DNA of 47,977 nucleotides from a bacterium (GTDB lineage Bacteria; Planctomycetota; Phycisphaerae; Phycisphaerales; UBA1924), in the NCBI GenBank assembly GCA_024743075.1, contig JANSXG010000003.1, positions 1-47,977 of the forward strand, in the 5' to 3' direction. The translations under genes and the position numbers were made by a program. The notes below the pieces were generated by a model. The model was not told the origin of the DNA and searched no databases. It worked only from the letters and a program-made list of their open reading frames with translations. Below are positions 20,789 to 40,902 of this stretch, piece by piece; within the stretch, counting starts at the first letter, position 1, and each line of letters opens with the position of its first letter.

Positions 20789-20833
20789 GGCGCTCGTTCT
20801 GAATCCTGAATCCTTTTGTTCCGGCGGGAAGTC

Positions 20834-23465: not shown

Positions 23466-23488
23466 GCCCGTCCCGGCTGTCAGTGTTT

Positions 23489-23523
23489 GGTTCGGGAACC
23501 GTTCCTTGCGATCTGCGGATCGC
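23489..23523 (+). promoter_or_regulatory. Palindrome and hairpin in the pilus-locus leader
   Basis: GGTTCGGGAACC (23489-23500) is an inverted repeat with 5-bp arms. It is followed by GCGATC-TGCG-GATCGC (23508-23523), a 6-bp stem with a 4-nt loop and a short TTT after it. Both lie between the promoter candidate and the first ATPase start, where an operator or weak attenuator would act. Function is inferred from position. Confidence 0.3.
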
Positions 23524-23554
23524 TTTCATCGTGACAGGAAACCTGAGAGAGATT

Positions 23555-25327
23555 ATGGCCAAAGTGCGAAAGAAACTCGGACAGATCCTCGTCGAAAACG
23601 GGACCATCACGTCCGAGCAGCTCGAAACAGCCGTCACGATGTCCAAGGGCGCGGGCAAACGCATCGGTGAGATTCTCGTCGAAGCCGGAATGTGCTCCGA
23701 GGAGGCGGTCGCCAAGGCGCTCGCGATGCAGTTCGGCATCGATTATCTCGACATAGATGACGAGGCGGTCGCGGCGAAGGTTGACGCTTCGTTGCTCCCC
23801 AAGGACCTTATCCGCAAGCACCTCGTGCTTCCGCTCGGCAAGGAGCGGGGGCGCCTCGTGCTCCTGATGCACGACCCGAAGGACCTCGAACTGCTCGACC
23901 TCATCCGGTTCCGACAGAACACGGAAGTTGAGCCCAAGATGTGCGCGCGAGGCAAGCTCAAAGCCTACATCGATGGCAAGATGGAGGGCGGCGCAAAGCC
24001 GATGGTGCCCGGCGGCAACGAGTCGCTGCTGACCGCTTCGATCGACAAATCGATCGACAAGTCCGTGGATCGTTCCGTTGACTCGTCGATCGATCAGGCA
24101 GCCGAGTCCGCCCCGATCATCAAGCTCTGCGAGCGCATTATTATCGAGGCGGTTCGGAACCGTGCCTCCGACATTCACATCGAGCCCATGGCCGACCGCG
24201 TGCGCCTGCGATACCGCATCGACGGTGTCTGCATCGAGCGTGACAACCTCCCGAAGCGGATGCAGAACGCCATCCTCGCACGTTTCAAGCTGATGGCCGG
24301 CGTGAACATTGCCGAGAAGCGCATCCCGCAGGACGGTCGTATCAAGATGCACATTCCGTCGGAGGACGGAGGCGAGGGGGAGACCGTCGACTTCCGTGTA
24401 TCGTCCTGCCCGGCGTACCACGGCGAGTCGATCGTGCTCCGTATTCTGCGCCCCGATTCGGTTCGAATCGGCCTGAAGAACCTTGGCTTCGAAGAAGACA
24501 CTCTCCAAGCCTTCAACAAGATCATTCGGCGGCCCAACGGCATCTTCCTCGTCACCGGACCCACCGGCTCCGGCAAAACGACCACGCTGTATTCGGCGCT
24601 CGATGTGCTCAACCGGCCCGACAAGAAGATCATCACCGCCGAAGATCCGATCGAGTACGCGTTCACCGGCATCAACCAGTGCCAGGTTCGCGAGGGCATC
24701 GGGCTGACCTTTGCCAAAGTGCTTCGCGCCATGCTTCGTCAGGCGCCGAACATCATTCTCGTCGGTGAAATCCGTGACCGCGAGGTCGCCGAAGTCGCCA
24801 TCCAGGCCGCTCTGACGGGCCACCTCGTGTTCAGTACGCTCCACACGAACGATGCCCCGTCGGCGATGACCCGACTTATCGACATGGGTGTGAAGCCGTT
24901 CCTCGTTTCGTCCTCGATTCAGGCTGTGCTCGCTCAGCGGCTGATCCGCAAGGTCTGCCCGAAGTGCCGGAAGCCCGACGACAACCCGGACCGCAAGTAC
25001 CTGCGTCTGACGGGCATCACCGACGAGGAGATGAAGAACCACACGATCTACAAAGCCGTCGGCTGCGACAACTGCGCCGGGACCGGCTATCGCGGTCGTC
25101 AGGGCATCTACGAGCTGATGACCATGAACGCCGAGATCCGGGACCTGACGTTCAAAGTCTCGCCCTCGGCGGATATCCGTCGGGCCGCCATCGCGGGAGG
25201 CATGCGCCCGCTGCTGGGCGACGGCAAGATCAAGGTCCTCAACGGCATCACCACGCCAGCGGAAATCGCCCGTATCGCCCAGGTAGAGGGCGTCCAGATG
25301 GCGGAAGAGGAACTCGCCGCCGTCTGA
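23555..25327 (+). CDS. PilB/GspE-type assembly ATPase 1
   Basis: Cytoplasmic ATPase of 590 residues that powers pilin or pseudopilin polymerisation. The N-terminal MshEN-type domain (residues 1-145) has LGQILVENGTITSEQL and ILVEAGMCSEE repeats. The linker at 162-182 is a repeated SIDK/SVDR sequence. The GspE core has RNRASDIHIEP, Walker A GPTGSGKT (335-342), the Asp box ITAEDPIEY, Walker B NIILVGEIRD (399-408) and the His box TGHLVFSTLHTND. A zinc site is formed by Cys468, Cys471, Cys504 and Cys507. The ATG at 23555 is preferred over an upstream start because it begins the MshEN domain. It is the first gene of the locus, 84 bp before pilT. Confidence 0.93.
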   Translation: MAKVRKKLGQILVENGTITSEQLETAVTMSKGAGKRIGEILVEAGMCSEEAVAKALAMQFGIDYLDIDDEAVAAKVDASLLPKDLIRKHLVLPLGKERGRLVLLMHDPKDLELLDLIRFRQNTEVEPKMCARGKLKAYIDGKMEGGAKPMVPGGNESLLTASIDKSIDKSVDRSVDSSIDQAAESAPIIKLCERIIIEAVRNRASDIHIEPMADRVRLRYRIDGVCIERDNLPKRMQNAILARFKLMAGVNIAEKRIPQDGRIKMHIPSEDGGEGETVDFRVSSCPAYHGESIVLRILRPDSVRIGLKNLGFEEDTLQAFNKIIRRPNGIFLVTGPTGSGKTTTLYSALDVLNRPDKKIITAEDPIEYAFTGINQCQVREGIGLTFAKVLRAMLRQAPNIILVGEIRDREVAEVAIQAALTGHLVFSTLHTNDAPSAMTRLIDMGVKPFLVSSSIQAVLAQRLIRKVCPKCRKPDDNPDRKYLRLTGITDEEMKNHTIYKAVGCDNCAGTGYRGRQGIYELMTMNAEIRDLTFKVSPSADIRRAAIAGGMRPLLGDGKIKVLNGITTPAEIARIAQVEGVQMAEEELAAV

Positions 25328-25411
25328 TCGACCGCCAACGCCAAACCGAACTCACCGCCCAGAATCCCACGCGATCCGTCGCGAGCAAGAACCGACGAAG
25401 GAACCGACCAA

Positions 25412-26539
25412 ATGTCCACCATGCAGATCGACCGCCTGCTTGACACGGTCATCAAACTCAACGCTTCTGACCTCCACCTCAGTGTGGGGCGAAAGCCAAC
25501 ACTCCGCCTTCACGGCGGCCTGAAGAATCTCGATACGAAGGTGCTCGAGTCTGACGACATGGTCACGCTCATGAAGGCGATCACGCCCGAGCGCAACCAG
25601 CAGGAACTGCAGGAAGTGGGCGGCACCGACTTCGGCTTCGCCTATGGCAAGGCCGCTCGTTTCCGTGTTTCGGTGTTCCGCCAGCGTGGTGACATCTCGA
25701 TCGTCTGTCGCCTGATTCCGAACAAGCTGCTGACATTCGATCAGATCGGCCTCCCGGATCAGGTGAAAGACCTTATCAGGCGTCCGCGAGGACTGTTCCT
25801 TGTGACAGGACCGACGGGGTCCGGCAAAACGACGTCGCTGGCAACGATGCTCGACTACATCAACATGAACCTCGAGCGCCACATCGTCACGATGGAAGAC
25901 CCCATCGAGTATTACCACTATCACAAAAAGTCGATCGTGAATCAGCGCGAGGTCGGAACCGACGTCCCGAGCTTCGCGGAATCGCTGCGAAGGGCCCTCC
26001 GGCAGGACCCGGACGTGATCCTCGTCGGCGAAATGCGAGATCTCGAGACGATTGAAGCCGCGATCCGCGCGGCTGAGACCGGCCACCTTGTGTTCGGCAC
26101 GCTCCACACCACCGGGGCGGCGAAGACGATCGACCGTGTCGTTGACGCGTTCCCGGTCAGCCAGCAGAACCAGATCCGCGTCCAGATCTCAACCTCGCTC
26201 ATCTGCGTGCTCAGCCAGGTCCTGCTCGGGCGTGTGGACATCAAGGGCATGGTCGCTGCCTACGAAATGCTGGTGATTACGCCCGCGATCGCCAACCTCA
26301 TCCGTGACAACAAGTCATTCCGTATCGACTCGGCGATCCAGACCGGGAAGAAGTACGGCATGCAGCTCCTCGATGAGCACCTCTGGTCGCTGTACACCAA
26401 GGGAATGATCGCGGCGGACGAAATGGTGGACAAGGCGAAGAACGGTGCGGACCTCGCGGATCGGGTGCATCGCCTCGGCCGCCAGGTTGGACGCCCGGAA
26501 TTGGATGTCGAGGACGACACAGCAGCCGCGGAAGAATGA
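25412..26539 (+). CDS. pilT: Twitching/retraction ATPase PilT
   Basis: PilT-type hexameric ATPase of 375 residues that depolymerises type IV pili. The N-terminal PAS-like domain starts with LNASDLHLSVGRKPTLRLHG. Walker A is GPTGSGKTTS (133-142). The Asp box MEDPIEY, Walker B DVILVGEMRD (201-210) and the diagnostic PilT motif AIRAAETGHLVFGTLHT (217-233) follow. There is no tetracysteine zinc site, as expected for PilT. The C-terminal tail is acidic. Its presence between two PilB-type ATPases means the filament is probably retractable and so more pilus-like than a pure type II secretion pseudopilus. Confidence 0.95.
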   Translation: MSTMQIDRLLDTVIKLNASDLHLSVGRKPTLRLHGGLKNLDTKVLESDDMVTLMKAITPERNQQELQEVGGTDFGFAYGKAARFRVSVFRQRGDISIVCRLIPNKLLTFDQIGLPDQVKDLIRRPRGLFLVTGPTGSGKTTSLATMLDYINMNLERHIVTMEDPIEYYHYHKKSIVNQREVGTDVPSFAESLRRALRQDPDVILVGEMRDLETIEAAIRAAETGHLVFGTLHTTGAAKTIDRVVDAFPVSQQNQIRVQISTSLICVLSQVLLGRVDIKGMVAAYEMLVITPAIANLIRDNKSFRIDSAIQTGKKYGMQLLDEHLWSLYTKGMIAADEMVDKAKNGADLADRVHRLGRQVGRPELDVEDDTAAAEE

Positions 26540-26770
26540 CCCGGTATGTCGGTGGCGTATCAATCGACCCGATCGCTTAGCGTCGCAGGCCTTTGCGAAG
26601 AAATTGGCCTCGCCGTGGTGAATTCTATTTTCTTTCGCCGCCAAACGAACTGCAATCGGAGTGTCGCATGCATGTGATTGCTCTATCCGCTTTGTTTTCA
26701 GGATCTTACGGATCGAAATCAGTGAATATATACCCGTGACGTCGGCAGTTGCCGGCGAGGAGGTTTTGGT
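26540..26770. other. Intergenic gap between pilT and the second ATPase
   Basis: A 231-bp gap, noticeably more AT-rich than its surroundings. It contains TATATA at 26727-26732 with a poor TTACGG -35 at 26706-26711 (15-bp spacing), so an internal promoter is possible but weak. An AGGAGG site at 26758-26763 precedes the GTG start of the next gene. No gene is seen in it. Confidence 0.4.
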
Positions 26771-28528
26771 GTGGCGACAGTGAGCCCTGAAGAACTGAAG
26801 AAACGCAAGATCGGCCGCGTGCTGACAAAGCTCGGCAAGATCAGTCGTGAGCAGGTTCACGAGGCGCTCGCCAAGCAGCGTCAGATGGACCCAAAGGCCC
26901 GCAAAATGCTGGGTGAGATCCTTGTCGAGATGGGGCTGGTCACGGAGCGCGACGTTCTCGAAGCGCTTGCCGGCCAAGCTGGCATGGGCTTCGTCGAAGT
27001 CGGCAAGCTGACCCTCGACCAGGAAACCATCGACGCCATCCCGGCCGAGACCGCCATGGCGTACCAGTGCGTGCCCGTGGAGTACGACAGGGCCCGCAAG
27101 CGTTTGAAGGTGGTCGTAAAGAGTCCGGATAACTTCCGGGCGGTCGACGACCTCCGTCTTCTCATGGGGTTCAAGGTCGAGGCCTTTGTCGCCCCTCCCG
27201 AGCAGGTCGACGAGAAGCTCAAGGAGCACTACGCCGCGGCGAAGTCTTCGATCGCCGATGTGGTTGGCGAGATCGGCTCGGATGCAGGGCTCGCGAACCT
27301 GTCGAACCGCCCGGGCGGTGGCCAGTCGATCGACCTCGAAGCGGTCTTAGATGCTTCGGAGGACAACAAGGTCATCAAACTGATGAACCTGGTGCTCCTG
27401 CAGGCCATCAAGGACCGCGCTTCCGACATCCACTTCGAGCCGTTCGAAGATGAATTCAAGATGCGGTATCGCATCGACGGCGTGCTGTACGAGATGGTGC
27501 CGCCTCCCGCGTATCTCGGCCCGGCCATCACATCGCGCGTGAAGGTTATGGCGAACCTCGACATCGCCGAGCGCCGCCTCCCGCAGGACGGGCGCATCGA
27601 ATTGACCGTCGGCGGCACGCCGGTCGACCTGCGTGTGTCGGTTCTGCCCACCATGCACGGCGAGAGCGTCGTGATGCGTGTGCTCGACCGGTCGAACGTC
27701 GAACTCAGTCTCGACCGGGTCGGCCTGCGTTCCAACGACTACGAGACTGTCAGCCAGATGATCCACAAGCCGAACGGCATCGTGATCGTCACTGGTCCGA
27801 CCGGCTCAGGAAAGACGACAACTCTCTACGCCGCTCTGCAGGAGCGGAACGGTCCGAGCGAGAAAATCCTGACCGCCGAGGACCCTGTCGAGTACGACAT
27901 CGATGGCCTGTGTCAGTGCCAGATCAACACGGAAGCAGGCCTGACCTTCGCGTCCTGCCTTCGGTCGTTCCTGCGTCAGGATCCCGACGTGATCCTCGTC
28001 GGCGAGATCCGCGACCTTGAGACCGCGCAGATCGCGGTGCAGGCGTCGCTGACCGGCCACCTCGTGTTCAGCACGCTGCACACCAATGATGCGCCAAGTT
28101 CGGTCGTGCGTCTGCTCGACCTGGGCCTCGAGGCGTTTCTCCTGACCGCGACGATCGAGGCGATCATCGCGCAGCGTCTGTGCAGAACGGTCTGCGCGAA
28201 CTGCAAGGAGCCTTACACGCCGACGGAGGAGCAACTCATGGAGCTGCAACTCCGTCCGGAAGATGTGGCGGATCGCCAGTTCTTCCGCGGACGCGGGTGC
28301 GATGTGTGCCACGGGTCCGGCTACAAGGGGCGTACGGCGCTCTTCGAAATCATGGTCATGGACGACGGCCTGCGCGATCTCATCATGAAGGAAGCATCCA
28401 CGGCGGTGCTCCGCGAAGAAGCACGCAAGCGCGGCATGCGTTCGCTGCGCGAGTCCGGCCTGCTCGCCATCTACGACGGGCTTACCACCATCGACGAGGT
28501 CGTCCGCGAGACGGCGCTCGACGACTGA
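26771..28528 (+). CDS. PilB/GspE-type assembly ATPase 2
   Basis: Second assembly ATPase, 585 residues, with the same domain order as the one at 23555 but without the SIDK linker. The MshEN-type domain (1-155) has LGKISREQVHEAL and LGEILVEMGLVTERDVLEAL. The core has KDRASDIHFEP, Walker A GPTGSGKT (342-349), LTAEDPVEY, Walker B DVILVGEIRD and TGHLVFSTLHTNDAPSS. The zinc cysteines are CANC and CDVC. The GTG start is fixed by an AGGAGG ribosome-binding site 7 nt upstream. It immediately precedes the platform protein gene, the canonical gspE-gspF order, which suggests this is the ATPase paired with that platform. Confidence 0.93.
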   Translation: MATVSPEELKKRKIGRVLTKLGKISREQVHEALAKQRQMDPKARKMLGEILVEMGLVTERDVLEALAGQAGMGFVEVGKLTLDQETIDAIPAETAMAYQCVPVEYDRARKRLKVVVKSPDNFRAVDDLRLLMGFKVEAFVAPPEQVDEKLKEHYAAAKSSIADVVGEIGSDAGLANLSNRPGGGQSIDLEAVLDASEDNKVIKLMNLVLLQAIKDRASDIHFEPFEDEFKMRYRIDGVLYEMVPPPAYLGPAITSRVKVMANLDIAERRLPQDGRIELTVGGTPVDLRVSVLPTMHGESVVMRVLDRSNVELSLDRVGLRSNDYETVSQMIHKPNGIVIVTGPTGSGKTTTLYAALQERNGPSEKILTAEDPVEYDIDGLCQCQINTEAGLTFASCLRSFLRQDPDVILVGEIRDLETAQIAVQASLTGHLVFSTLHTNDAPSSVVRLLDLGLEAFLLTATIEAIIAQRLCRTVCANCKEPYTPTEEQLMELQLRPEDVADRQFFRGRGCDVCHGSGYKGRTALFEIMVMDDGLRDLIMKEASTAVLREEARKRGMRSLRESGLLAIYDGLTTIDEVVRETALDD

Positions 28529-28631: not shown

Positions 28632-29933
28632 ATGCCATCATTCGCTTACCAAGCCCTCGACAAGTCCGGCAAGCAGCAGAAGGGGACCATCGAGGCCGCG
28701 AACTCGGAAGAAGCGATCCAGCGGATCAAGCTGCAGGGCTACTTCCCAACGTCCGTCCGCGAGCAGAAGGCCAAGAAGGGCAAGGGGGCCCCCGAAGGCG
28801 CTGGCAAAGACCAGATGCAGAAGAAGTCGGGCGGCAGCGGGGGCATCGTGCTTCCGTTCGCAAGGGTCAAGGGCAAGCAGCTCACCACCTTCACCCGTCA
28901 GCTCTCCACCCTGCAGGACGCCGGCCTACCGTTGCTGCGCTCGCTGCAGATCCTCGAACAGCAGCAGAAGCCGGGCCTGCTCAAAGGCACGCTCCAGGGC
29001 GTCGTCGAGGATGTCGAGGGCGGCTCATCGCTTTCTGAGGCGATGGCCAAGCAGCCCAAGGCGTTCAACCTGCTGTACACCAAAATGGTCGCGGCCGGTG
29101 AGGTCGGCGGTGTTCTCGATGTCATCCTGCAGCGTCTCGCCGAGTTCATGGAGAAGAGCCAACGCCTGAAGCGTCAGATCATCGGTGCGCTTGTCTACCC
29201 CGCGGCAGTCATCTCCGTCGCGGTCCTGATCGTGGTCGGGATCATGATCTTCATCATCCCGCAGTTCGAGGAGGTTTTTGCCGACTTCGACGTCGCGCTG
29301 CCGAAGCTGACTGTGCTGCTGACAGACACGTCGCGCTGGATGGCCGGCAACTACCCGACCGAGGGCGCGATGATGCTCCCCGGTGCCGTGTACGTGGTCG
29401 GGGGGTTGATCCTCGTTCCGATTCTCTTCAAGCTCGCACGTTCGGTGAAGCCGGGTAAGGCGCTGCTCGACCGAATCACGCTGTACATCCCGATCATCGG
29501 CGGCCTCGTCCGCAAGACAGTCGTCGCGCGATTCACCCGAACGCTGGGCACGCTGATCGCGGCCGGTGTTCCGATCCTTGAGGCGGTCACCATCACGAAG
29601 GAAACCTGCGGCAACTACGTCTTCGAGAAGGCGCTCGGCAACGTGCACGACTCAATCCGCGAGGGTGAAACCTTCGCGCAGCCGCTTCGGGAGGCGAAGG
29701 TCTGCGACGCGATCGTCGTCAACATGATCGATGTCGGCGAAGAAACCGGTGACATGGACACCATGCTCATGAAGATCGCCGACAACTACGACGAGGAGGT
29801 CGACACCGCCGTCGCGTCGCTCGTCTCGCTGCTCGAGCCGATCATGGTCATCGTGCTCGGTGGCATCGTCGGCACGATCGTGGTCGCGATGTTCCTCCCG
29901 CTGATCTCCATGATCGACGGCCTCCAGGGCTGA
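28632..29933 (+). CDS. pilC: Inner-membrane platform protein PilC/GspF
   Basis: Polytopic platform protein of 433 residues on which the assembly ATPase acts. The N-terminal sequence PSFAYQALDKSGKQQKGTIEA is the family opening. Two cytoplasmic GspF repeats lie at about residues 85-205 and 295-415; each has the FTRQLSTLQDAGLPLLRSL or FTRTLGTLIAAGVPILEAV pattern. Hydrophobic helices are visible at about 185-210, 250-270 and 390-420. GEVGGVLDVIL and VGEETGDMDTML are the conserved acidic turns. The start has GGAGCGG 7-8 nt upstream. It is the only platform gene in the window, although there are two PilB-type ATPases. Confidence 0.95.
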   Translation: MPSFAYQALDKSGKQQKGTIEAANSEEAIQRIKLQGYFPTSVREQKAKKGKGAPEGAGKDQMQKKSGGSGGIVLPFARVKGKQLTTFTRQLSTLQDAGLPLLRSLQILEQQQKPGLLKGTLQGVVEDVEGGSSLSEAMAKQPKAFNLLYTKMVAAGEVGGVLDVILQRLAEFMEKSQRLKRQIIGALVYPAAVISVAVLIVVGIMIFIIPQFEEVFADFDVALPKLTVLLTDTSRWMAGNYPTEGAMMLPGAVYVVGGLILVPILFKLARSVKPGKALLDRITLYIPIIGGLVRKTVVARFTRTLGTLIAAGVPILEAVTITKETCGNYVFEKALGNVHDSIREGETFAQPLREAKVCDAIVVNMIDVGEETGDMDTMLMKIADNYDEEVDTAVASLVSLLEPIMVIVLGGIVGTIVVAMFLPLISMIDGLQG

Positions 29934-29985: not shown

Positions 29986-31020
29986 ATGCACGATTTCAGA
30001 ACGACATCCCGAGCCAGACGCGGTTTCACGCTGGTGGAACTCCTGGTTGTGTTCGTCGTCATCCTGATCCTCGTCGGGATTCTGGTGGTCGCGCTGAGCG
30101 GTGCGGTCAGCAGCGCCCGACGCTCGAAGACGGTGGCTCAACTGCAGTCGATCAGCACCGCCATCGACGCGTTCGAGACCGACTTCCGCTACGTGCCGCC
30201 GCTGGTCACACCGGAACTCGTGTCACCCGATTCGAGCCCGACGCGCACCGGCCTGGTGACTCCGAGGACGCACGCTCAGGCGGCGGGGAACCCGAACAAC
30301 ATCGACCAGTACTACCGTGACGCCCGTTACAACAGCGAGTTCTCGCTGACGGTCTATCTGCTGGGCATCGGAGCACTGAACCCGGACGAACTCGACGACG
30401 ACGGTGTCGCGCCCGGCAGCACCCCGCTGCACGACGGCGTCCCGGGGCCGGGCTTCAAGGCACCGGGCAACCTGCGGGCGTGGAAGGTCCAGCCTTCCAG
30501 CGGTCCCATCCGCCACGAGCCGCAACTGACCGGTCGTACATACGGACCGTACCTTGACTTCGGCACGCTCGAAGGCGTCGTCGACTTCGACGAGGATCGC
30601 GGCATGTTCCGGATTCTCGACCCCTGGGGGAATCCGGTCCGCTACTACTCGGGCTGGAACGGCTTCCGCATCGTGAACGGCAACCGCCAGCCGACACTCG
30701 ACGAGATCCCGATCGAACTGCGATCGAGCGAAGGCCTTGAGGCCGAATTGGGCGGCGCGAATCTGGCGCAGTTGCTCGATTTCGATGACGAACTCCGCAC
30801 CGCCAAGTACGCACTGCTTTCCGCAGGGGAGTCCTCGGACGACTACTACGGCACGAACCCGTACACCGGCGAGCAGAACACCTTCATCGCCCCGTTCGGC
30901 GATGTGGTGTTTGAGTCGAACGGCTCGACATCGCTGGTCGACACCTACTCCGCGCTCAACCAGGAGCAGCAGGTGTCGTTCCTGAAGCAGGTGGGCTCCA
31001 ACCTGAGGTACATCAAGTGA
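29986..31020 (+). CDS. Large GspG-like pseudopilin
   Basis: Pseudopilin of 344 residues, more than twice the usual GspG length. The class III signal is RRGFTLVELLVVFVVILILVGILVVAL with Gly at -1 and Glu at +5. An amphipathic helix with SKTVAQLQSISTAIDAFETDF follows, then the GspG-like RYVPP. The globular part contains DPWGNPVRYYSGWNGF, a variant of the DPWG motif in GspG proteins. The extra length is mostly proline-, aspartate- and glycine-rich insertions. It follows the platform gene by 52 bp. The stop overlaps the GTG start of the next pseudopilin by 4 bp. Confidence 0.9.
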   Translation: MHDFRTTSRARRGFTLVELLVVFVVILILVGILVVALSGAVSSARRSKTVAQLQSISTAIDAFETDFRYVPPLVTPELVSPDSSPTRTGLVTPRTHAQAAGNPNNIDQYYRDARYNSEFSLTVYLLGIGALNPDELDDDGVAPGSTPLHDGVPGPGFKAPGNLRAWKVQPSSGPIRHEPQLTGRTYGPYLDFGTLEGVVDFDEDRGMFRILDPWGNPVRYYSGWNGFRIVNGNRQPTLDEIPIELRSSEGLEAELGGANLAQLLDFDDELRTAKYALLSAGESSDDYYGTNPYTGEQNTFIAPFGDVVFESNGSTSLVDTYSALNQEQQVSFLKQVGSNLRYIK

Positions 31021-31772
31021 CGCAGACCACCACCCGCCAACCCCGCCAGCGCGGCTTCACGCTCATCGAGGTGCTGATCGCCATCGCGATCATCGCGATT
31101 CTCGTCGCCGCGGTCTTCGCGGTCGGCCGTCAGGTCGTGACCCGTCAGAAGATCAACCAGACGACGGGCGTACTGTCCTCGCTCGACCGTGCTCTTGAGG
31201 AGTATCGGATCGAGACCCGTGTCTTCCCGCGTCTGGAAACCGACCGCTATCTCGATCAGCTTTGGCGCGATTTCGCCGGCGGGTCGAGCCCCGTGGTTGA
31301 CGACGAGACGCAGCAGACATTTCTCGGTGGCGTGCGCAACTACCGCGGTGAGAACTTCACGTGGCTGCCGAACGCCGCGTACTTCCTGTACCTCGCTGAC
31401 GGCTACGAGAACATCGACGCCATCACCAGCGGTATCCCGGATCAGTTCAGCGAGACGGTGCAGATCAGCAACAGCGTGTTCCGCGTGCAGGTTGTCGATG
31501 CGTGGGAGCAGCCGATCATCTTCGTGACCCCGGACAACCCGTTGGCTCAAGCGATCTTCGGCGAATGCCCGAGTGATCGGCCGTACTTCATGTCCGCCGG
31601 GCCCGACGGGCATTACGGCGTGCCGACGGATGTCGGGGTGGGCGGGCTGAGCGGTCCGGCGTTGGAGCGCAAGCTGGCCTCGTACCGCGAGGACAACATC
31701 TATTCGCTCACACCCGGCAGCATCGATGCGTCGTTCGATATCGGGTCTCTCAGCATCGGGGACTTCCAGTGA
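31017..31772 (+). CDS. GspG-like pseudopilin
   Basis: Pseudopilin of 251 residues. The leader MTQTTTRQPRQRG precedes FTLIEVLIAIAIIAILVAAVFAV, with Glu at +5. The globular domain carries DAWEQPIIF and later FMSAGPDGHYGVPTD, matching the DPWG and SxGxDG calcium-site motifs of GspG. The GTG start overlaps the upstream stop (GTGA) and its own stop overlaps the next start (GTGA), indicating translational coupling. It is the smallest of the pseudopilins in this run and the one most like a canonical major pseudopilin, though still almost twice the usual 140 residues. Confidence 0.9.
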   Translation: MTQTTTRQPRQRGFTLIEVLIAIAIIAILVAAVFAVGRQVVTRQKINQTTGVLSSLDRALEEYRIETRVFPRLETDRYLDQLWRDFAGGSSPVVDDETQQTFLGGVRNYRGENFTWLPNAAYFLYLADGYENIDAITSGIPDQFSETVQISNSVFRVQVVDAWEQPIIFVTPDNPLAQAIFGECPSDRPYFMSAGPDGHYGVPTDVGVGGLSGPALERKLASYREDNIYSLTPGSIDASFDIGSLSIGDFQ

Positions 31773-32878
31773 ATCGCAACGCTCCGTACATCCGACGCGC
31801 GTTCACGCTGATCGAACTGCTGGTGGTGATCATCATCATCATCATCGGGGCGACGCTCCTGCTCCCGGCGGCAACGCGGATCCTCGAGTCCAACAGTTAC
31901 GCCTCAGCAGTGAACCTGGTTTCGACCACGCTCGCCAACGCGCGAGCCCAAGCGATCCGCACGGGTGTGCCGACCGGCGTGGTTTTCCTCTTCGACACGC
32001 AGACGCAGACCTGCACCATGCAGGTCGTCGAGGTCCGTTCCCGTCAGGGTGGTGCGCTCACGCAATTCGTCGCGCAAGACCCGCGTCACGCCTACGCCCA
32101 GGTGTTCCGCCCGGCGATCGGCTCCGCGCCGGTCGAGCTGCCGGCGGGGATCGCTGTGATGGGCCTCTCGTTCTCGACCGCTCCGGGCGACGGCGACGGC
32201 AGCCTGATCGACGAGGACACCGCTCACTGGTACGCCGGTGAGATCTACACCGACGCGGACGGCAATGACATCATCCCGTGGGTTTTCCCGCGGAACGATC
32301 CCCTGCACTTCGTCCGCAACAATTTCTCGCGCGAGCAGATTTGGGAACTCGACGGCATCGCCGATGACGATGCGTTCGCCGCTGTGCGCCATGCCGCCAG
32401 CTTCATGATCCGTTTCAGCGAAACCGGCGCGGTGGTCACGACCTCGGTCGGCGGCGGCATCGCCACCCCCAACGCCTTCCTCGAGTTCCCCGAGGGTCCG
32501 CTGGACCGTACCGTGGACTACGACCCCGATGATCCACCCGAAGCAGTCGATGCGCTCGACCGCTTCGATCCCGAGATCGGGCTCGGCGAAGACTTCGACC
32601 CGAACCCGGAAGTGCTCCTCCGCTCGGCCCATCAGTTGGCGGTGGTCGAACTCGGTCGCATGAGCCGCGAGCTCGCTATTGAGGAACCGTGGTTCATCCG
32701 CCCCGAGCGCGACGGCGGCCTGCCCATGCCCGGCCCGAACAACCCGAACGACGACAACTGGTACGCGCGGGTCAGCGACGACGACACCAGTCGCATCAGC
32801 CTCTGGGTTGACTTCAACGCAGAGATCGTCGGTTTCAACCGCTACACGGGAGAGGTCCTCAGAAAGGCCAACCCATGA
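31769..32878 (+). CDS. Large GspH/FimT-like pseudopilin
   Basis: Pseudopilin of 369 residues; GspH proteins are normally 150-190. The signal is YIRRAFTLIELLVVIIIIIIGATLLL, with Ala instead of Gly at -1 and Glu at +5. The six consecutive Ile are encoded by a pure (ATC)6 tract. The following helix ASAVNLVSTTLANARAQAIRTGVPTGVVF is the GspH pattern, with the conserved AR and short strand after it. The remainder is Asp/Glu/Pro-rich and has no recognised domain. It overlaps both neighbours by 4 bp. Prepilin peptidases can usually tolerate Ala at -1, so processing is plausible. Confidence 0.88.
   Translation: MNRNAPYIRRAFTLIELLVVIIIIIIGATLLLPAATRILESNSYASAVNLVSTTLANARAQAIRTGVPTGVVFLFDTQTQTCTMQVVEVRSRQGGALTQFVAQDPRHAYAQVFRPAIGSAPVELPAGIAVMGLSFSTAPGDGDGSLIDEDTAHWYAGEIYTDADGNDIIPWVFPRNDPLHFVRNNFSREQIWELDGIADDDAFAAVRHAASFMIRFSETGAVVTTSVGGGIATPNAFLEFPEGPLDRTVDYDPDDPPEAVDALDRFDPEIGLGEDFDPNPEVLLRSAHQLAVVELGRMSRELAIEEPWFIRPERDGGLPMPGPNNPNDDNWYARVSDDDTSRISLWVDFNAEIVGFNRYTGEVLRKANP
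31829..31846 (+). repeat. (ATC)6 trinucleotide repeat in a pseudopilin signal helix
   Basis: Six perfect ATC codons encode six Ile in the hydrophobic transmembrane segment of the GspH-like pseudopilin. Slippage would change helix length in steps of one residue without frameshift. Confidence 0.8.
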
Positions 32879-34410
32879 CACAGCGATTCTCACATCCCAC
32901 CACACCGGCCCGCTCAGGCTTCACGCTGATCGAAGTATTGATCGCGACCTTTGTGATCGCCCTCGGTTCCATCGGCCTGATTGCGCTCTTTGCTGGCGCG
33001 GCCGCTCAGCAGCGCGTCGCCTCGCAGACGACTGCGTCGGTCATCGTGTCCAAGAACGCCGAGGCCATCATCTCGCCCCGATTTGGGCGCATCGATGGCA
33101 CCCTGTTCGACGGCCAACCGAACCCAAACGATCTCGACCGCGGCGTCTGGTACCCCGTGCCCGCCGATGACCTTGGCAACCTGTCGATCAACCCCCGCGC
33201 GAGCAGCATCCAGGAGCGTCGTGAGGCCTACTTCCTTCTCGACCGCAACGATGAAACGGTTCTCTTTGAACTGCCGATGACCAGCCAGTGGCGCCAGCAG
33301 GCCCTCGGGCGCGGTCGGTACCGCGCAGACGGCCAGGGACCCGACGGCGCGGTGTTCAACGTCTCTCCCTACGCCGTTCGTCCCTTCCCCGTGAGCCGCG
33401 TGGACGGTGCCGGAACCGCCTCGATTCAGGTCGTGCACAATGACAAGCCACAACCCGGAGACCCGCAGTACAACTACCGCGGCGAGGTGACCAGCCGATT
33501 CGTCTATGTCAACACCAACTACGCTGCGGGTCGGCCCACGAACTGGCCGGTCAACGCCCCGTTCTCGAACCAGGGCGAGTACGCGCTGTTCACCCAGAAC
33601 GGTGGTTTCCCCGGCCCGACCGGTTCTTACATTCTGGTCAAGCGCTACGAGGAACCCGTCACCGGCGAGCCGCTCTCGTTCATCGACCAGTTCGACATCA
33701 CGGCGATCGTCGATCCCACTGGGGACGCGCAGTTCCAGCGACACCTCCAGCGGATCGTTGTGCCGAGGGTGGTCTACCGGTCCGCCGAGGTCATCTCGTC
33801 CGGCGACCGCGTCGTGACGGTGGCGGACGACGCCTTCGACGCGGGCGTACGCCCCGATGTCGGCTACTCGCTGCTCTTCCGCAAGCTCGAAAGCGGCGGC
33901 AGCCAAATCGCGGTCTTCACATACTTCGTGAGTGGCTCTGACCGCTCCGGCGAGTTCGCTCTCGCCGAGAATGTCGGCGATGCCCCCGGCCCGTTCGGCA
34001 GTGACTCCGGCAGCGACGAGTGGGGGCTGCGCATGCTCGCCGACATCGTGCTCGCGTACGACGAGGATCGAGAACAGTTCTACTTCGAGGCATCGTCCGA
34101 CGAAGAGATCAACGCGCTCGCTCCCGGAGCAGTGATCCTGGTGTCGGGTGAACCGGAGGGCGGTTCGAACCGGCTCGCCGGCGCTGATCTCCCGGTGCGG
34201 GTCGTGCGACAGGTTCGTGCCCCGGGCGGCGGAAACGTCTTCCGGTGCTACATCAACCGCGTCCCACGTGCGGGCGGCAAGTCCATGCTGGCCTTCCGCG
34301 ATCAGACCCGGTCGCTGGACCTCTGGACGATCCGCCAGAACGTCGTTTCGACCGATGGCTCGGAATGGTCGTTGCGTCCGCGTGAACTCCGCATCTTTAA
34401 CGTGAACTGA
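32875..34410 (+). CDS. Large GspI/PilV-like pseudopilin
   Basis: Pseudopilin of 511 residues, against about 120-200 for GspI/PilV. The signal is ARSGFTLIEVLIATFVIALGSIGLIAL with Gly at -1 and Glu at +5. It is followed by a helix with AAAQQRVASQTTASVIVSKNAEAI, resembling the GspI/PilV N-terminal stalk. The long C-terminal region is beta-rich, with many Asp/Gly turns and few cysteines, and has no recognised enzymatic motif. The ATG overlaps the previous stop (ATGA). The order GspG-G-H-I-J-K across this run matches the canonical minor pseudopilin order, which supports the GspI label. Confidence 0.85.
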   Translation: MTQRFSHPTTPARSGFTLIEVLIATFVIALGSIGLIALFAGAAAQQRVASQTTASVIVSKNAEAIISPRFGRIDGTLFDGQPNPNDLDRGVWYPVPADDLGNLSINPRASSIQERREAYFLLDRNDETVLFELPMTSQWRQQALGRGRYRADGQGPDGAVFNVSPYAVRPFPVSRVDGAGTASIQVVHNDKPQPGDPQYNYRGEVTSRFVYVNTNYAAGRPTNWPVNAPFSNQGEYALFTQNGGFPGPTGSYILVKRYEEPVTGEPLSFIDQFDITAIVDPTGDAQFQRHLQRIVVPRVVYRSAEVISSGDRVVTVADDAFDAGVRPDVGYSLLFRKLESGGSQIAVFTYFVSGSDRSGEFALAENVGDAPGPFGSDSGSDEWGLRMLADIVLAYDEDREQFYFEASSDEEINALAPGAVILVSGEPEGGSNRLAGADLPVRVVRQVRAPGGGNVFRCYINRVPRAGGKSMLAFRDQTRSLDLWTIRQNVVSTDGSEWSLRPRELRIFNVN

Positions 34411-34418
34411 AACGAGCC

Positions 34419-36287
34419 ATGATGAAGACACACAACAACACATCAACGCAGCGTTTCAGAACTGCTTCGCCGCGATCGGCGTTCACGCTCGTGGAACTCC
34501 TGGTCGCCGTGGCGGTGGTGATTCTTCTCTCGATCGGCATCGGCCAGCTGTTCGGCAACGTCTCGCGACTGGTGAACACCGGCTCCGCCGTAGCCGAAGT
34601 CGACGCGCTCGCGAGAGCGCTCGAAAAGCAGATCCGCGATGATTTCGATCGGATGAACAGGCTGCCAACCGAGGACACGATCCTCGCGATCCGTTCCCGC
34701 CTCGTCCGCGATGTGTACCTGACCGCGGATGACGAAGAGAGCGATCGGCGAGCAAACATCGAGCCCGGTGACCCGGGGTCGTTGGCAATCTCGACCCGCC
34801 TCGACGAGGTACTCTTCCTCGCAGAGTCGGGCGGCAACGAACTCTTCCAGACCGCCCAGGAGGCCGGCGACGAGTACGACACGGTCTTTACGCCCGTCGC
34901 TCGCATCATGTACGGCCACGGTCTCAAGCCGGTGCTCGATCCGAACTACGCCCCGGACCCCGACGACATCGACTTTGACACCGCCGACCCGGCCAACGAA
35001 GACCTCTATCGCAATCGGATCTGGTACGCCGACGGCGACTTCGGCTCCGGGCCGACCGCGACCGGGTTCAACACCACCGTGAACCGATTCAGCCCCGGCA
35101 GCGAGCGGTCCACCGGACGCAACCAGTTTGCCGGCCAGTACTCCCTCGCGCGCCACGAACTGCTGCTCGCCGGCGGGCTCGCGTTCTCGTACGCGGACCC
35201 CGGAACCGGTTCGGCGTCCGGACGCAACCGCAATATCGCGATGTACGTCCGCGACCTCGACACGCTGCGGTTCAACGGCATCAACTCGAGTGTCTTCGAG
35301 CCGTCGGGTTCCGATCCTGACCCTCCGTTCTTCCGCGCTTCGGCTTTCGACAATCTCGATGTCCCGGCGATCGGCCTGATCCGCCACGGGCGAGTCGACA
35401 TCGCCGCGCAATCGCCCGAGTCACTGAAGCGTTGGCTTGAGGGCGTCCAGTCCCGCGATACCGCCAGCGCCGGCGTACCGCCGCCGCTCCCGCCCGACGG
35501 CACCGCCTTCGACGCGGGCTACTTCGACCAGGGGGCCGACGAGTGGCGCCCGACCGCGCTCGATGTGGCGGACCGCCCGCTCTGGGTCCGGCGTACCGTG
35601 CGTCGAGGAATCGTCACTCCCCCGGGGCTTTCTGTCGGCCAGGTGCGTCAGTACAACACGCGTCTGCTCCAGAGTTCGATCGCGGGCATGTTCAATCGCC
35701 TGCTCGTTGAGACCGAGCCCACCACCATTCAGCGTGTGGTGCCCAACTCGCCGAACGCGCAGCGCCCCGAGCAGACGCTCATGGATTACCACGCGGTCAT
35801 CGCATCCCGATGCAGCCGCTTCGAGGTGTATTGGTCCGATGGCACTCGCTGGCGCGGCCCGGACTCCGGTCCGATCGATCTGAGCGGTGACGGCACAAAC
35901 ATCGTCGAATACAGCGCGGGCGACATCGTCTGGTTCGGGTTCAACACGCCGCGCGAATCGCTCCTGCTCACCGGCGCTGCCAGCGCCGAGATCCCGCGGA
36001 ACACAAGAGACGCACGCCTGAACACGACTACCGACGGCCTGAGTCAGATCGGTCTCGAAGCCGCGTACGACATCGATCGCACCGCCGCATCGCCGGACCC
36101 TCGCAACGAGTACATGGCGATCTGGGGCTACCGCACCCCGGGGCCCTCGGGCTTCTACGAGCCCGGCGGCTGGCCCAAGCCCTCGCTGCTCAAGTTCCGG
36201 ATCACGCTCCACGATTCACAGTTCCGTCTGCGCGACGGCAAGACATTCGAGTTCATCATCGAAATCGATACCCAGCAGCTCAACTGA
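34419..36287 (+). CDS. Large GspJ/PilW-like pseudopilin
   Basis: Pseudopilin of 622 residues; GspJ proteins usually have about 200. The signal is SPRSAFTLVELLVAVAVVILLSIGIG, with Ala at -1 and Glu at +5. The following stalk, GSAVAEVDALARALEKQIRDDFDRM, is the GspJ/PilW pattern in which a long helix precedes the first strand. The globular part is Pro/Asp/Arg-rich and contains no recognised domain. It is 8 bp after the GspI-like gene and 73 bp before the giant GspK-like gene. Start at 34419; a second ATG at 34422 is equally possible. Confidence 0.85.
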   Translation: MMKTHNNTSTQRFRTASPRSAFTLVELLVAVAVVILLSIGIGQLFGNVSRLVNTGSAVAEVDALARALEKQIRDDFDRMNRLPTEDTILAIRSRLVRDVYLTADDEESDRRANIEPGDPGSLAISTRLDEVLFLAESGGNELFQTAQEAGDEYDTVFTPVARIMYGHGLKPVLDPNYAPDPDDIDFDTADPANEDLYRNRIWYADGDFGSGPTATGFNTTVNRFSPGSERSTGRNQFAGQYSLARHELLLAGGLAFSYADPGTGSASGRNRNIAMYVRDLDTLRFNGINSSVFEPSGSDPDPPFFRASAFDNLDVPAIGLIRHGRVDIAAQSPESLKRWLEGVQSRDTASAGVPPPLPPDGTAFDAGYFDQGADEWRPTALDVADRPLWVRRTVRRGIVTPPGLSVGQVRQYNTRLLQSSIAGMFNRLLVETEPTTIQRVVPNSPNAQRPEQTLMDYHAVIASRCSRFEVYWSDGTRWRGPDSGPIDLSGDGTNIVEYSAGDIVWFGFNTPRESLLLTGAASAEIPRNTRDARLNTTTDGLSQIGLEAAYDIDRTAASPDPRNEYMAIWGYRTPGPSGFYEPGGWPKPSLLKFRITLHDSQFRLRDGKTFEFIIEIDTQQLN

Positions 36288-36360
36288 CCCGAGCGAAGCA
36301 AAGTCAACTCTGTACGCGCGGCCTCGCCGGTCGCGTGGGAAAGAGCCGGAGGGCTCAACC

Positions 36361-39300
36361 ATGAACCTGATCAAGAAAATCGCACACGCACGACGAACCA
36401 GGCAGGAGCGGGGAACGATCCTCATCCTCGCGATCGCCGTCCTGGCGGTGCTCTCGTTGCTCGCGGTCTCCTACGTGACCGTCGTCCGCATCGATCGAGA
36501 CTCGTCCGATGCCGTCGCTGTTTCTCGCGATTTCGACCAGCAGGTCGGTACCGTCGTCCGGCACATGCAGTCGCTCCTGACCGCCGACATGTTCGGGAAC
36601 AAGGTCGTGACCACCAGCGTGCCGAGGTACACCGGAAACGGCGTCGCCGTCTGGCCGAGCATGTTCGAGGACGGAGAGTACACGGACATCGATTTCATCG
36701 ATCCGCTCTACGCCCGTTCCAACCCGTCCGACGCGCCGTCGTTCCAGAACGGACGAGTCCTTCAGGCCGTCGGCAACGCTTCGCGCCGCGTCGGTCACCC
36801 GGACGACGCGTGGCTCGCCTCGACCGAACCCCGCTGGGTCAGCAACGGATTCTCGGGCAACCCGTACTTCGAAAACTTCACAAACCTCCGCAGCGCGTTC
36901 AAGTGGAACGCCGAAGACCAGCGGTGGGAGCGCGGCGACGGCCTCTACGTTGATCTGGCCCAGTGGTTCCTGAACCCGATCGACGGGCGTGCGAACGCGG
37001 GCGTCGACCTGCTGGACACGACCGGGTCTGAAGTGACCGCCATACGCGGACCGCAGTACTCGAAAGGCGAGTTCGTTCGGCAGCAGGACGGCATCGACTA
37101 CACGCTCCAGATGCCGCAGCTCACGCCGGGCGGTGACCCGACCTTCCTGTTCCAGAACGACGAGCGATTCTTCGTCGATACGACCGGCGACCTTCGCCCC
37201 GATGCGCAGTGGACCCAGCTCGAGGAACTCGGCAACCTCTTCGGTCTCAACTGGGTCGTCGCGGCGCGCATCACCGATGCCTCGGCACTCGTCAACCTCA
37301 ACACCGCGATCGAAGCCCCCGCGTACAACCTCGTGCCCGGCACGATCGGCTCACGCGACTACGCAGAAATCGTCGGGACCGGCGAGACTCCCGCGGATGT
37401 CGATCTGGTCCGGCTGCTGACCTACGACTACGGGCTGACGGTTCCGACCGGTCTGTTCGTCAACGGCAGCCCCAACCTGAACCGCATCCTCGGTGACGGC
37501 GCCGCGTTCAACAACCACCTCGACGACGGGCGCGGACTCTTCAACGTTCTGAGCAATGTGCAGGACCAGGCCACCCCGGGGTACATCTCGGCCGTCGATC
37601 CGCTCCGCGCGGGACCCGGCCAGACGTCGGCCCCCTGGGGCGTCAACCAACCGCTGACGCGAAACCAGCGCCTGGCGCTCTATCAGGCAGCCTACTCGCG
37701 TCCGCTCGGGGGGTACCCGCGGGCAGAGCGATACCCCGAACGGGCCCTGCTCGACCTGCATGGCTTCTGGGCAACCAACAACGCGACGCTCATCTCCAAG
37801 CCCGAGCAGTACCTCGACGGCCCGGAGATCGGCGGTTACCTCCCCTCTGCAACAAACTCGCCCGGTAACGGTCCGCTCCGAGCAGCCGAGATCACCGCGC
37901 CGAGCATCCGTGCCTACGGCGAAGGCCCCGCAGCTCGGCCGACCGTGCAGCAAGCCGTCTTCGACAACCGCCGGCTGCTCACCACGATGAGCGGTGCCGG
38001 CCGCTTCAGCCCCGTTCCAGTAATCAACAAGACGCAGCAGGTCACCGAGTTCGACGGCATCTTCGCCCGTGAACAGCACGAGGTTTCCTCTCTGCGGACG
38101 AACGACGCCGCAGAGGTGTTCGCCGACATGGTCTGGGCGCTGGCGCCGTTTGCGACGAATCAGGAATTGGTGAAGCCTGTTCAGGGCAGCTCGGCCATCG
38201 AGTCCAACCAGGCGTCCAACCCGGACTTCCACTACGGCGGCGGACCGAACGGACCCGCGCAGCAGTTCGCGAACCTCATCGGCTCCGGTGTCGGCCAGAT
38301 CGGCGCGGCGTACGCGCTCCATCGAGCCGGAGCGTTCACCGTCAACCTGATCGATGCCGCAGATCGTCAGATCCTTGGTGGCGTCGAGCGAGAGCGCCCC
38401 ACGGTGCTCCGATTCCTGCCCACCGTGGACTTCCCCATCCAGCTGCCTCTCCTGCCCGGCTACGAGCAATCGTTCGCGAACGCTCGATTCGCTCACGGCG
38501 ACATCGAGTTCACCGGCAGCCCCATCAGCCCTGATTTCATAGGCGAAGACTTCGGCGGCATCAGTTTCATCGGAGTTGATCGCCAGCCGTTCTTGGTCGA
38601 TGCGCACACATTTGCGATCTACCAGGGCAACACGAACGGCAACCCGGCCGTTATCACCCCCGACGATCCATCCAACCACGTGGGCTCACTCATCGCCATT
38701 GAACTCGCCAACCCTTGGCCGGACCCGATACAGGTCGGACCGAGCAGCGCGTTGGGCTCTGGTGACCCCGCCGGAGGCTACGCCGTGCGTATCCAGCGCG
38801 ATCGCTCTTGGATCGAGCTGCAGTTGCCGAACGTGACGATCGATCCCGGCGAGCGACGCGTCATCGTGTGGGCGTCCGAGTCCGGTGTGAACGGATTCGA
38901 GCCTTCGATCATGGACACGGTCTTGGCCGGCTGGATCAGCACGGTCGAGGACGAGTCCGATGTGCCGGGTGTTGTCTCGGTGCTCGACCGCGGATTGGTC
39001 GAGGAAGTGATCTCGGTGAACTACCAGAACGGCGGCGCCACCATCAGCGAGGCCATCCCGTTCCAGCAGTTCGCCACGCAGCTCACCGGGCAGACGCAGG
39101 TCCAACTTATCCTGAAGGCCGATGATCCCGCGCAGGGCTCGGCGAATCCCATCCATTCGCCGCCCGCGCCCGAGCGCAAGGCCGACATGCTCGTCGATCG
39201 TCTGACCACGATCAGCACATCGGTGGCAACGGGCGACGGGATAGACGCGCTCGACTTCTTCGGCGGCCTGCGCGAGACGCGTACTCAGACCTTCGTGAGA

Positions 39301-40902
39301 CCGGACGGAACTCGCGCGAACGGCAATTTCCGGGTGACCGTCGTCGGCAGCATGACGCGCCCGCCGCGCCGTCCGGCGGGCCAGGAAGGCTTCCCGGCCT
39401 ACGTCGTCGAGAAGCCGTCCTTAAACCGAATCGCGGTCGCCGGGCACACCGATAGCAGCGGGCCCGGAATCGGGAGTAACTACATCCAGACATGGGAGAC
39501 CACCACCGGCGGCGGCGGCGGAGGGGGTACCGGTCCCGGTGCGGGAGGCGGCGGCGCCGGCGGCGGCGATGTCAACGATCCGCTCATCGGCCCCGCTCCG
39601 ATTCCCGGCCTGTGGGCATCCGGGGACGGCTTCCGCATCGGCAACGATGCCGAACGCCCGATCTTCCAGAACCTCCCCGCGTTCCAGCTGTTCAACCCCA
39701 GCACGAGCCTGTCCTCGGTCGCGAATGTCGGACTCGTTTCCGCGTTCAGCCACATGTACCTGCACGACGCCGCGGGCTTCCCGAACTCCGGATATAGCGT
39801 CCTTCGAGTGAACGAGTTCTCGACTCGCTACAACAACGATGTCCCGGGATTCGGCGTGAACGACCCGACCGCCGGTCGCTGGCTGACTTTCAGCGAACAA
39901 CTCGGATTCGATTTCCACCTCGACGGCGATCCCACAACGCCCGGCACCATCGAGCCGAACCCGTGGTTCGGCAAGATCGATCCGACGCGCTATCGCTTCG
40001 GCGACCAGCTCGCGACCGCGCAGGGACTCCCCGACAGCATGGCCGTCCCGGTCGGCTCGCGGATCTTCGATCTGTTCTTCACGATGAGCACAAGCGATTT
40101 CCTGACGCCGGGTCAGATCAATATCAACACCGCACCCCGACGCGTGTTGTCCACGCTGCCCTTGGTCGAGCCTCTCCAGCCGGTCCAGGACGGTTCGGGA
40201 AGCGGTCCGACCCTCGTCGCGACACCGCCTCTGTTCGGCGGCTTCAACGGAGCGAGCCGCGCCGGCCGCATGTACGACTACCGAGAGCGCAAGGGACAGT
40301 TCGGACCGGGTCGCGACCAGATCACGAACTTCACCGGCCTCACGAATCTGAGGAACGTCGCCGGCAGTGACAACCAGACCGCGATGAGGGGCTTCGTCAC
40401 GAAGGGCGAACTCGCCTTGCTGGGGCAGTTCCAGGCGTCGGACGGTCTCCCGGTCCCCGGTCAGACCGGCACTTTCCTTGAGGTGGGGGCCAACGCGCTT
40501 AACGCCAAGGCCCCGCCGTTCGAAACATGGTCGGACACCGGTCGCTTGTTCTCGTTCGGCCCGGGTGGTGACAAGGCCTACGCCTTCACCGACTTCAATC
40601 CGAGCAGCGACGCCGAGGAGCAACTCGCGCTGTTCCGCGCTGTAGCCAACATCGTTAGCACCCGTTCGGATGTGTTCATGGCGACGTTCGTGCTCCGTGG
40701 CTACGACCCCGATGTCATAGAGTCGATCGAGATCCCCGGAGGCTCCGGAAGCGGCGGGGCACTCCAAGCAATGAACGACCCCCTGTTCCGCCCCGCCTAC
40801 GAATCGCGATGGCTGGTGGTGTTCGATCGCTCCAACGTTCGTCAGCCGACCGACCGGCCTCGCGTCCTGCTCCGCATGGAATTGCCGAGCGCCATACCGT
40901 AA
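36361..40902 (+). CDS. Giant GspK-like tip pseudopilin
   Basis: A 1513-residue protein with GspK architecture, about five times the normal 300-330. The N-terminus, RQERGTILILAIAVLAVLSLLAV, has Gly at -1 and, as in GspK, no Glu at +5. DASALVNLNTA near residue 310 resembles the first GspK strand-loop. INTAPRRVLSTLPLV near residue 1255 matches the second GspK helix motif NINTAxxxVLxxL. The segment between them has grown to roughly 940 residues; part of it (1047-1070) is a poly-Gly linker that separates an N-terminal globular region from the C-terminal GspK half. GGAGGG precedes the ATG. An intrinsic terminator follows. It would cap the filament tip. Confidence 0.85.
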   Translation: MNLIKKIAHARRTRQERGTILILAIAVLAVLSLLAVSYVTVVRIDRDSSDAVAVSRDFDQQVGTVVRHMQSLLTADMFGNKVVTTSVPRYTGNGVAVWPSMFEDGEYTDIDFIDPLYARSNPSDAPSFQNGRVLQAVGNASRRVGHPDDAWLASTEPRWVSNGFSGNPYFENFTNLRSAFKWNAEDQRWERGDGLYVDLAQWFLNPIDGRANAGVDLLDTTGSEVTAIRGPQYSKGEFVRQQDGIDYTLQMPQLTPGGDPTFLFQNDERFFVDTTGDLRPDAQWTQLEELGNLFGLNWVVAARITDASALVNLNTAIEAPAYNLVPGTIGSRDYAEIVGTGETPADVDLVRLLTYDYGLTVPTGLFVNGSPNLNRILGDGAAFNNHLDDGRGLFNVLSNVQDQATPGYISAVDPLRAGPGQTSAPWGVNQPLTRNQRLALYQAAYSRPLGGYPRAERYPERALLDLHGFWATNNATLISKPEQYLDGPEIGGYLPSATNSPGNGPLRAAEITAPSIRAYGEGPAARPTVQQAVFDNRRLLTTMSGAGRFSPVPVINKTQQVTEFDGIFAREQHEVSSLRTNDAAEVFADMVWALAPFATNQELVKPVQGSSAIESNQASNPDFHYGGGPNGPAQQFANLIGSGVGQIGAAYALHRAGAFTVNLIDAADRQILGGVERERPTVLRFLPTVDFPIQLPLLPGYEQSFANARFAHGDIEFTGSPISPDFIGEDFGGISFIGVDRQPFLVDAHTFAIYQGNTNGNPAVITPDDPSNHVGSLIAIELANPWPDPIQVGPSSALGSGDPAGGYAVRIQRDRSWIELQLPNVTIDPGERRVIVWASESGVNGFEPSIMDTVLAGWISTVEDESDVPGVVSVLDRGLVEEVISVNYQNGGATISEAIPFQQFATQLTGQTQVQLILKADDPAQGSANPIHSPPAPERKADMLVDRLTTISTSVATGDGIDALDFFGGLRETRTQTFVRPDGTRANGNFRVTVVGSMTRPPRRPAGQEGFPAYVVEKPSLNRIAVAGHTDSSGPGIGSNYIQTWETTTGGGGGGGTGPGAGGGGAGGGDVNDPLIGPAPIPGLWASGDGFRIGNDAERPIFQNLPAFQLFNPSTSLSSVANVGLVSAFSHMYLHDAAGFPNSGYSVLRVNEFSTRYNNDVPGFGVNDPTAGRWLTFSEQLGFDFHLDGDPTTPGTIEPNPWFGKIDPTRYRFGDQLATAQGLPDSMAVPVGSRIFDLFFTMSTSDFLTPGQININTAPRRVLSTLPLVEPLQPVQDGSGSGPTLVATPPLFGGFNGASRAGRMYDYRERKGQFGPGRDQITNFTGLTNLRNVAGSDNQTAMRGFVTKGELALLGQFQASDGLPVPGQTGTFLEVGANALNAKAPPFETWSDTGRLFSFGPGGDKAYAFTDFNPSSDAEEQLALFRAVANIVSTRSDVFMATFVLRGYDPDVIESIEIPGGSGSGGALQAMNDPLFRPAYESRWLVVFDRSNVRQPTDRPRVLLRMELPSAIP
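39508..39570 (+). repeat. Glycine-rich linker-coding tract in the giant GspK-like gene
   Basis: A GGC/GGA/GGG-rich stretch encodes about 20 residues of mostly glycine near residue 1050-1070. The reading frame is continuous across it. It looks like a flexible hinge between two large folded parts. Confidence 0.75.

Follow-up and report, generated by a model that had tools for sequence, protein, structure and literature searches.

The window, by which we mean the whole 47,977-nucleotide stretch of DNA that was analyzed, encodes PilB, PilT and PilC together with a run of pilins, the combination found in type IVa pilus clusters (Table 1). The order PilB, PilT, second PilB, PilC was found in 15 of 15 genomes checked, two of them from a clade with short K proteins. 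The pilins and a large protein that we call K come next, and in most loci examined K is the last gene of the pilin operon. The K protein of the window, P0001, is encoded by an open frame with an ATG start and no internal stops. Both PilB/GspE-type ATPases (window 23483-28528) carry the MshEN motif, and they flank PilT in an arrangement kept in the 15 genomes. The H-, I- and J-like pilins (window 31769-36287; 369, 511 and 622 aa) are also enlarged, two- to fourfold over what is usual. Elsewhere in the window, two adjacent FAD-dependent halogenase/monooxygenase-like genes (18968-22600; CmlS-like, far below cut-off) are possibly a tandem duplication.

Table 1. Features of the filament gene cluster and of the K protein P0001 (positions in the window)
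Feature	Positions	Strand	Basis
PilB-type extension ATPase with c-di-GMP-binding MshEN motif	23483..25327	+	family match; conserved neighbour
PilT/PilU-family retraction ATPase	25412..26539	+	438 bits, cut-off 319; conserved neighbour
Second PilB/GspE ATPase with c-di-GMP motif	26771..28528	+	family match; conserved neighbour
PilC/GspF inner-membrane platform	28632..29933	+	family match; conserved neighbour
GspG-like pilin, 344 aa, Glu5 present	29986..31020	+	
Pilin, 251 aa, Glu5 present	31017..31772	+	
GspH-like pilin, 369 aa, Glu5 present	31769..32878	+	
GspI/PilV-like pilin, 511 aa, Glu5 present	32875..34410	+	
GspJ-like pilin, 622 aa, Glu5 present	34419..36287	+	
GGAGGG Shine-Dalgarno-like site	36348..36353	+	7 nt 5' of P0001 start codon; sequence
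Giant K-type minor pilin P0001, 1513 aa	36361..40902	+	open reading frame; homologues
Class III (prepilin) leader, residues 1-18, predicted cut after G18	36361..36414	+	sequence; RRG motif conserved in relatives
Hydrophobic alpha1 helix, residues 19-48; position 5 is leucine, not glutamate	36415..36504	+	
Motif 1, residues 272-316: D-x-x-G-D-x-x-x-D acidic loop and ARITDASALVNLNTA	37174..37308	+	
Lamin-tail-like Ig-fold domain, residues ~740-953	38578..39219	+	VIA on P0001 and L075 models; Pfam LTD in short members
Gly-rich stretch, residues ~1050-1069, predicted disordered, not conserved	39508..39567	+	
Motif 2 and helix-hairpin-helix region, residues 1249-1350, homologous to GspK second SAM-like domain	40105..40410	+	hhalign; PF03934/HHH_3 in relatives
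C-terminal strands (RSDVF ... FDRSNV ... RVLLRMELP), residues 1430-1511, matching GspK C-terminus	40648..40893	+	hhalign; VIA range of L075 to model residue 1198

The N-terminus of P0001, RQERG/TILILAIAVLAVLSLLAV with the slash at the predicted cut, is compatible with cleavage by prepilin peptidase ahead of a hydrophobic helix, as expected of a K-type pilin. P0001 also lacks Glu5, a feature of K-type tip pilins, whereas all five sibling pilins of the operon have it, and none of the 110 K members scored has an acidic residue at position +5 of the predicted mature chain, some of these cleavage calls being approximate. Two GspK-like motifs follow, VNLNTA at residues 311-316 and ININTAP at 1253-1259, with a spacing of 942 residues. 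A first-pass annotation had described a 1513-residue GspK-like tip pseudopilin with two GspK-like motifs about 940 residues apart; the frame and the motifs are confirmed, the latter starting at 311 and 1253, and the K-type tip class is supported. The acidic loop of motif 1 reads DGDGxxDxRW in relatives. In its longer form, DxDGDGxxDxRW, this loop resembles a calcium-binding loop and is kept in most relatives, and it is degenerate in P0001 (37174-37218; DTTGDLRPDAQW). Direct database searches returned little: P0001 had no match in Pfam or NCBIfam at E<=1 and none to the N_methyl model PF07963, and, searched against PDB sequences, P0001 mostly hit antibody fragments through their Gly linkers. 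The same search with a short relative (L129) gave no matches, and a PDB search with profile A2 gave weak helix-hairpin-helix matches only.

Judged through sequence intermediates and modelled folds, P0001 is a distant relative of GspK. It falls short of the curated cut-offs for GspK, with no match to NF037980 or PF03934 at E<=1, and for that reason we file it as a distant K-type relative and not as a T2SS GspK. The short members of the family supply the connection. Thirteen of 20 match NF037980 (T2SS_GspK; best 1.9e-8, and best 34 bits against a cut-off of 130), nine match PF03934 (T2SSK), where L129 exceeds the gathering score, and 16 match the helix-hairpin-helix family PF12836. The N-terminal 70 residues of one short relative (L107) align with GspK 2-71; in L129 it is the C-terminal part that aligns, with GspK 198-285. 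Short and long K families can in turn be aligned end to end (Prob 100, E 1.3e-68). When compared by hhalign with the ordinary GspK-like proteins of the lineage (A4), the short forms match GspK 312-430 over 119 columns (Prob 98.3, E 1.3e-14), a stretch that takes in the RSDVF strand as well as the motifs NINTAP and DRS, and the long forms match over 30 columns at motif 2 (E 6e-7). By this measure the NxNTA/helix-hairpin-helix region and the C-terminal strands are homologous to those of GspK; motif 1 is colinear with its GspK counterpart, but the profile match there is not significant (Prob 29). The textbook size of GspK is 300-330 aa. That figure, quoted in the first-pass annotation, needs qualifying for this lineage, whose ordinary GspK-like proteins have about 270-560 aa and two NxN motifs some 220 residues apart.

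Structure prediction is consistent with this assignment. Residues 116-1315 of the homologue L075 were modelled with AlphaFold2 from 63 sequences (pLDDT 73, pTM 0.84), and compared by VIA with known structures. Across model residues 11-1198, the model aligned with XcpX (Z 8.0, 213 of 259 residues) and with GspK 3ci0 (Z 7.6, 210 of 280 residues); its match to the Xcp pseudopilus model had Z 7.1. The GspK and XcpX scores are only moderately above background, values of 7.6-8.0 lying near the level that VIA calls common, but the alignment takes in the greater part of the GspK chain and is in line with what the sequences show. The model of L075 thus has a pilin fold with an inserted alpha-domain. 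The model of P0001 covers residues 300-1499 (pLDDT 72.6, pTM 0.83), without 1-299 and 1500-1513. GspK is not in the VIA list for this model, which is no evidence against a GspK fold because the model lacks both termini. Fold and tip class are both supported, and the GspK-like ancestry proposed at first pass is upheld by short relatives that match GspK families at both ends, by the profile-profile match at the C-terminus and by the fold of L075.

Within the extra mass of P0001, the models support a lamin-tail-like Ig fold, a fold best known from animal nuclear lamins. Residues 740-953 of P0001 match the lamin tail domains 3umn/3jt0/1ifr with Z 7.8 over 99 aligned positions, the next unrelated row being at 5.8, and residues 512-699 of the L075 model match lamin tail domains with Z 9.8. 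These results come from VIA run on candidates and on the Foldseek list of L075; Foldseek with the P0001 model (300-1499) gave no significant PDB match. The Ig fold of the model is like that of the lamin tail domain, whereas the sequence of P0001 has no match to PF00932, a family matched weakly in six of 20 short members (best relative 25.7 bits against a gathering score of 34.3). As had been anticipated, most of the chain is extra to the GspK core and includes at least one extra domain fold. The proposed poly-Gly hinge is a real Gly-rich run at 1050-1069, but it sits in a low-confidence loop (1048-1091, pLDDT <50 in the model) that is not conserved, and the suggestion of an enzyme at the tip is not supported by any fold or family: none of the enzyme folds stood out in the models, in which it was chiefly the lamin-tail part that was probed. 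Residues 330-700 and 955-1240 yielded no domain assignment.

With P0001 as query, matches were obtained in 49 of 61 genomes (its own and related ones). A profile of 18 full-length relatives found enlarged K proteins in 265 of 296 genomes of the class Phycisphaerae (E<=1e-4), most of the open frames measuring about 790-2730 aa, and nearly all named records that match are metagenome-assembled genomes of Phycisphaerales, Phycisphaerae or Planctomycetota. The short-form profile also has matches in a number of further families of the phylum, among them open frames of 755-952 aa. Because the enlarged form is class-wide and extends further into the phylum, its sequence distribution indicates that it is old and widespread. 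A recent insertion unique to the source genome was considered and is ruled out by the same distribution. Homologues of 1271-2241 aa in related genomes align with P0001 from end to end, so its features are not due to chance; coincidental N- and C-terminal signals were what the first-pass annotation had named as refuting its reading. The spacing of the two motifs grows from about 480-620 residues in short members (829-949 aa) to 942 in P0001 and 1380-1640 in the longest examined, and the enlargement seems to consist of several insertions inside the GspK fold rather than one. The earlier expectation of a single insertion, datable by comparison of relatives, is not supported, given a class-wide enlarged form of 790-2730 aa. 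K proteins share 20-36% identity with P0001, compared with 66-87% for PilT (15 genomes), and the K head is most likely fast-evolving.

In type 4 filaments, a tip complex of minor pilins is capped by a subunit without Glu5 (PMC10191384). Modular pilins, onto which a binding module has been grafted, have been described, and the pilin sheet of GspK and of ComZ has its module set into it (PMC8179133). P0001 likewise joins a pilin part to a domain that is not pilus-specific, the lamin-tail-like fold of the model. We therefore consider it likely that P0001 is the K-position tip pilin, with a large head, of a class-conserved, retractable type IV pilus-like system. The K protein would be processed by prepilin peptidase, as for other type 4 filaments, would pair with the I- and J-like pilins to prime assembly and, lacking Glu5, would occupy the very tip of the filament; support for a K-I-J complex and for the tip location comes from gene order alone. 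Large insertions, the lamin-tail-like Ig domain among them, would break up the GspK core, such that more than 1000 residues of K may form a head exposed at the tip of the filament. With PilB driving extension and PilT driving retraction, this head would attach to a surface, a polymer or a cell. We infer the tip position, the retraction of the filament and the binding of a ligand; an adhesin or ligand-binding role of the head is plausible.

The first-pass annotation had called the protein a GspK-like tip pseudopilin, and GspK/XcpX, a minor pseudopilin of the type II secretion system, is indeed among the closest known systems. Like P0001, GspK/XcpX (PF03934, NF037980) has a prepilin N-terminus without Glu5, an alpha-rich insertion inside a pilin-type fold, an NxNTA and helix-hairpin-helix motif, C-terminal strands, and a gene that ends an H-I-J-K order. 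P0001 differs in being five times longer, in its extra lamin-tail-like domain and several insertions, in its linkage to PilT with no secretin found nearby, and in lying far below the family cut-off. A T2SS-type pseudopilus whose tip recruits secreted substrates would account for the GspK/XcpX fold match, the GspE- and GspG-like similarities in the cluster and the several secretin places in the source genome. Against it, the PilT retraction ATPase is part of the cluster in 15 of 15 genomes checked. No secretin (PF00263) is found on the contig of the window (C128) among the matches listed (the best five of eight in the genome), all of which lie on other contigs, and ordinary-size GspK-like genes beside secretins occur elsewhere in the source genome. 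Because the cluster is PilT-linked, no secretin is listed on its contig, and GspK-like genes and secretins lie elsewhere, the system of the window is probably a type IV pilus-like filament and not the T2SS of the cell, and we rate the secretion reading as improbable. PilM (C113, C230) and PilO (C230) are encoded elsewhere in the source genome. At one locus on C113 (L171), PilM is followed by two genes whose N-termini resemble single membrane spans and that have no Pfam match, and no secretin was recognized among the three genes scanned; this locus is a candidate assembly platform for the filament of the window. The size of P0001, its low similarity to any pilin family and its lack of a direct family match would also suit an ordinary surface protein, secreted or anchored in the membrane, with a pilin-like N-terminus and no place in any filament. 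The position of K as last gene of the operon at most loci examined, its GspK homology at both ends, the missing Glu5 and a fold match across the chain make such a protein very improbable.

The main rival, and a serious one, is a general enlargement: structural demands, such as those of a deep periplasm or of a thick envelope, would have increased the size of every pilin of the operon, and what K has gained would be spacer or packing for the most part. Across 84 loci the length of K correlates with those of J (rho 0.70) and I (rho 0.43), and across 54 loci with at least four pilins with those of H (rho 0.83) and the fourth pilin (rho 0.87), all values being uncorrected for phylogeny. All pilins of the operon are enlarged along with K, and this is no specific pointer to the tip. 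Extraordinarily long secretins elsewhere in these genomes point the same way. However, the length correlation, uncorrected as it is, mainly reflects the contrast between the short-K and long-K clades; the length and sequence of K vary far more than those of the engine genes; and the lamin-tail-like domain of K is in keeping with a displayed head. On balance we regard general enlargement as unlikely. The long secretins are of interest in themselves. One relative (G011, contig C11; L177:5464-19257) has a 4597-aa open frame with 42 Secretin_N stretches before a single secretin domain, adjoining a T2SS-like cluster whose K-like gene is of ordinary size. Secretin-matching open frames of 3100-5018 aa occur in many relatives, and a contig-edge frame of the source genome (C72; L175:2226-7484) has 14 Secretin_N stretches. 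Such proteins possibly form a very long periplasmic tube and could reflect a deep periplasm; a literature search on giant secretins found nothing.

Among known systems, a tip pilin with a large head also resembles the modular type IV pilins (Streptococcus sanguinis PilB/PilC, Thermus thermophilus ComZ and ETEC CofB), minor pilins that carry a functional module; the largest in the published survey has 860 aa (PMC8179133). P0001, in contrast, has 1513 aa and its relatives have open frames of up to 2730 aa, and the family is K-type and near-universal in its class. The PilY1/PilC tip adhesin of type IVa pili (PF05567) is likewise a large protein and a proposed pilus-tip cap, but PilY1 is no pilin and forms a separate chain. 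PF05567 matched in none of 41 genomes, control genomes being equally silent, and P0001 has no Pfam match. There is a weak likeness to Verru_Chthon cassette protein A (TIGR02600), itself a very long model (1296 positions), whose N- and C-terminal parts match inside the giant K frame of five relatives; with E-values of 6e-4 to 0.03 all these matches are weak, their scores falling far short of the 332-bit cut-off, and in the source genome, P0001 included, there is no match. Searches of the literature on planctomycete pili and pseudopilins found no giant minor pilins by title or abstract. We tentatively put forward the possibility, which we hold with less than even confidence, that in the Phycisphaerae, and perhaps more of the Planctomycetota, the K pilin itself became the tip adhesin, one chain replacing K plus PilY1, through repeated insertion of domains (including the lamin-tail Ig) into the GspK core that took it from about 800 to more than 2000 residues.

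The K family is nearly universal in a large and ecologically abundant bacterial class, where P0001 had escaped Pfam and NCBIfam and exceeds the biggest modular pilin of the published survey. A large head carried on a retractable filament by an enlarged tip pilin would be an undescribed construction that resembles, and falls within, the known modular pilins. If K caps a retractable pilus, it would show how far assembly tolerates enlargement of the tip pilin, and it would give direct access to the means by which these bacteria attach to surfaces or polymers and pull on them.
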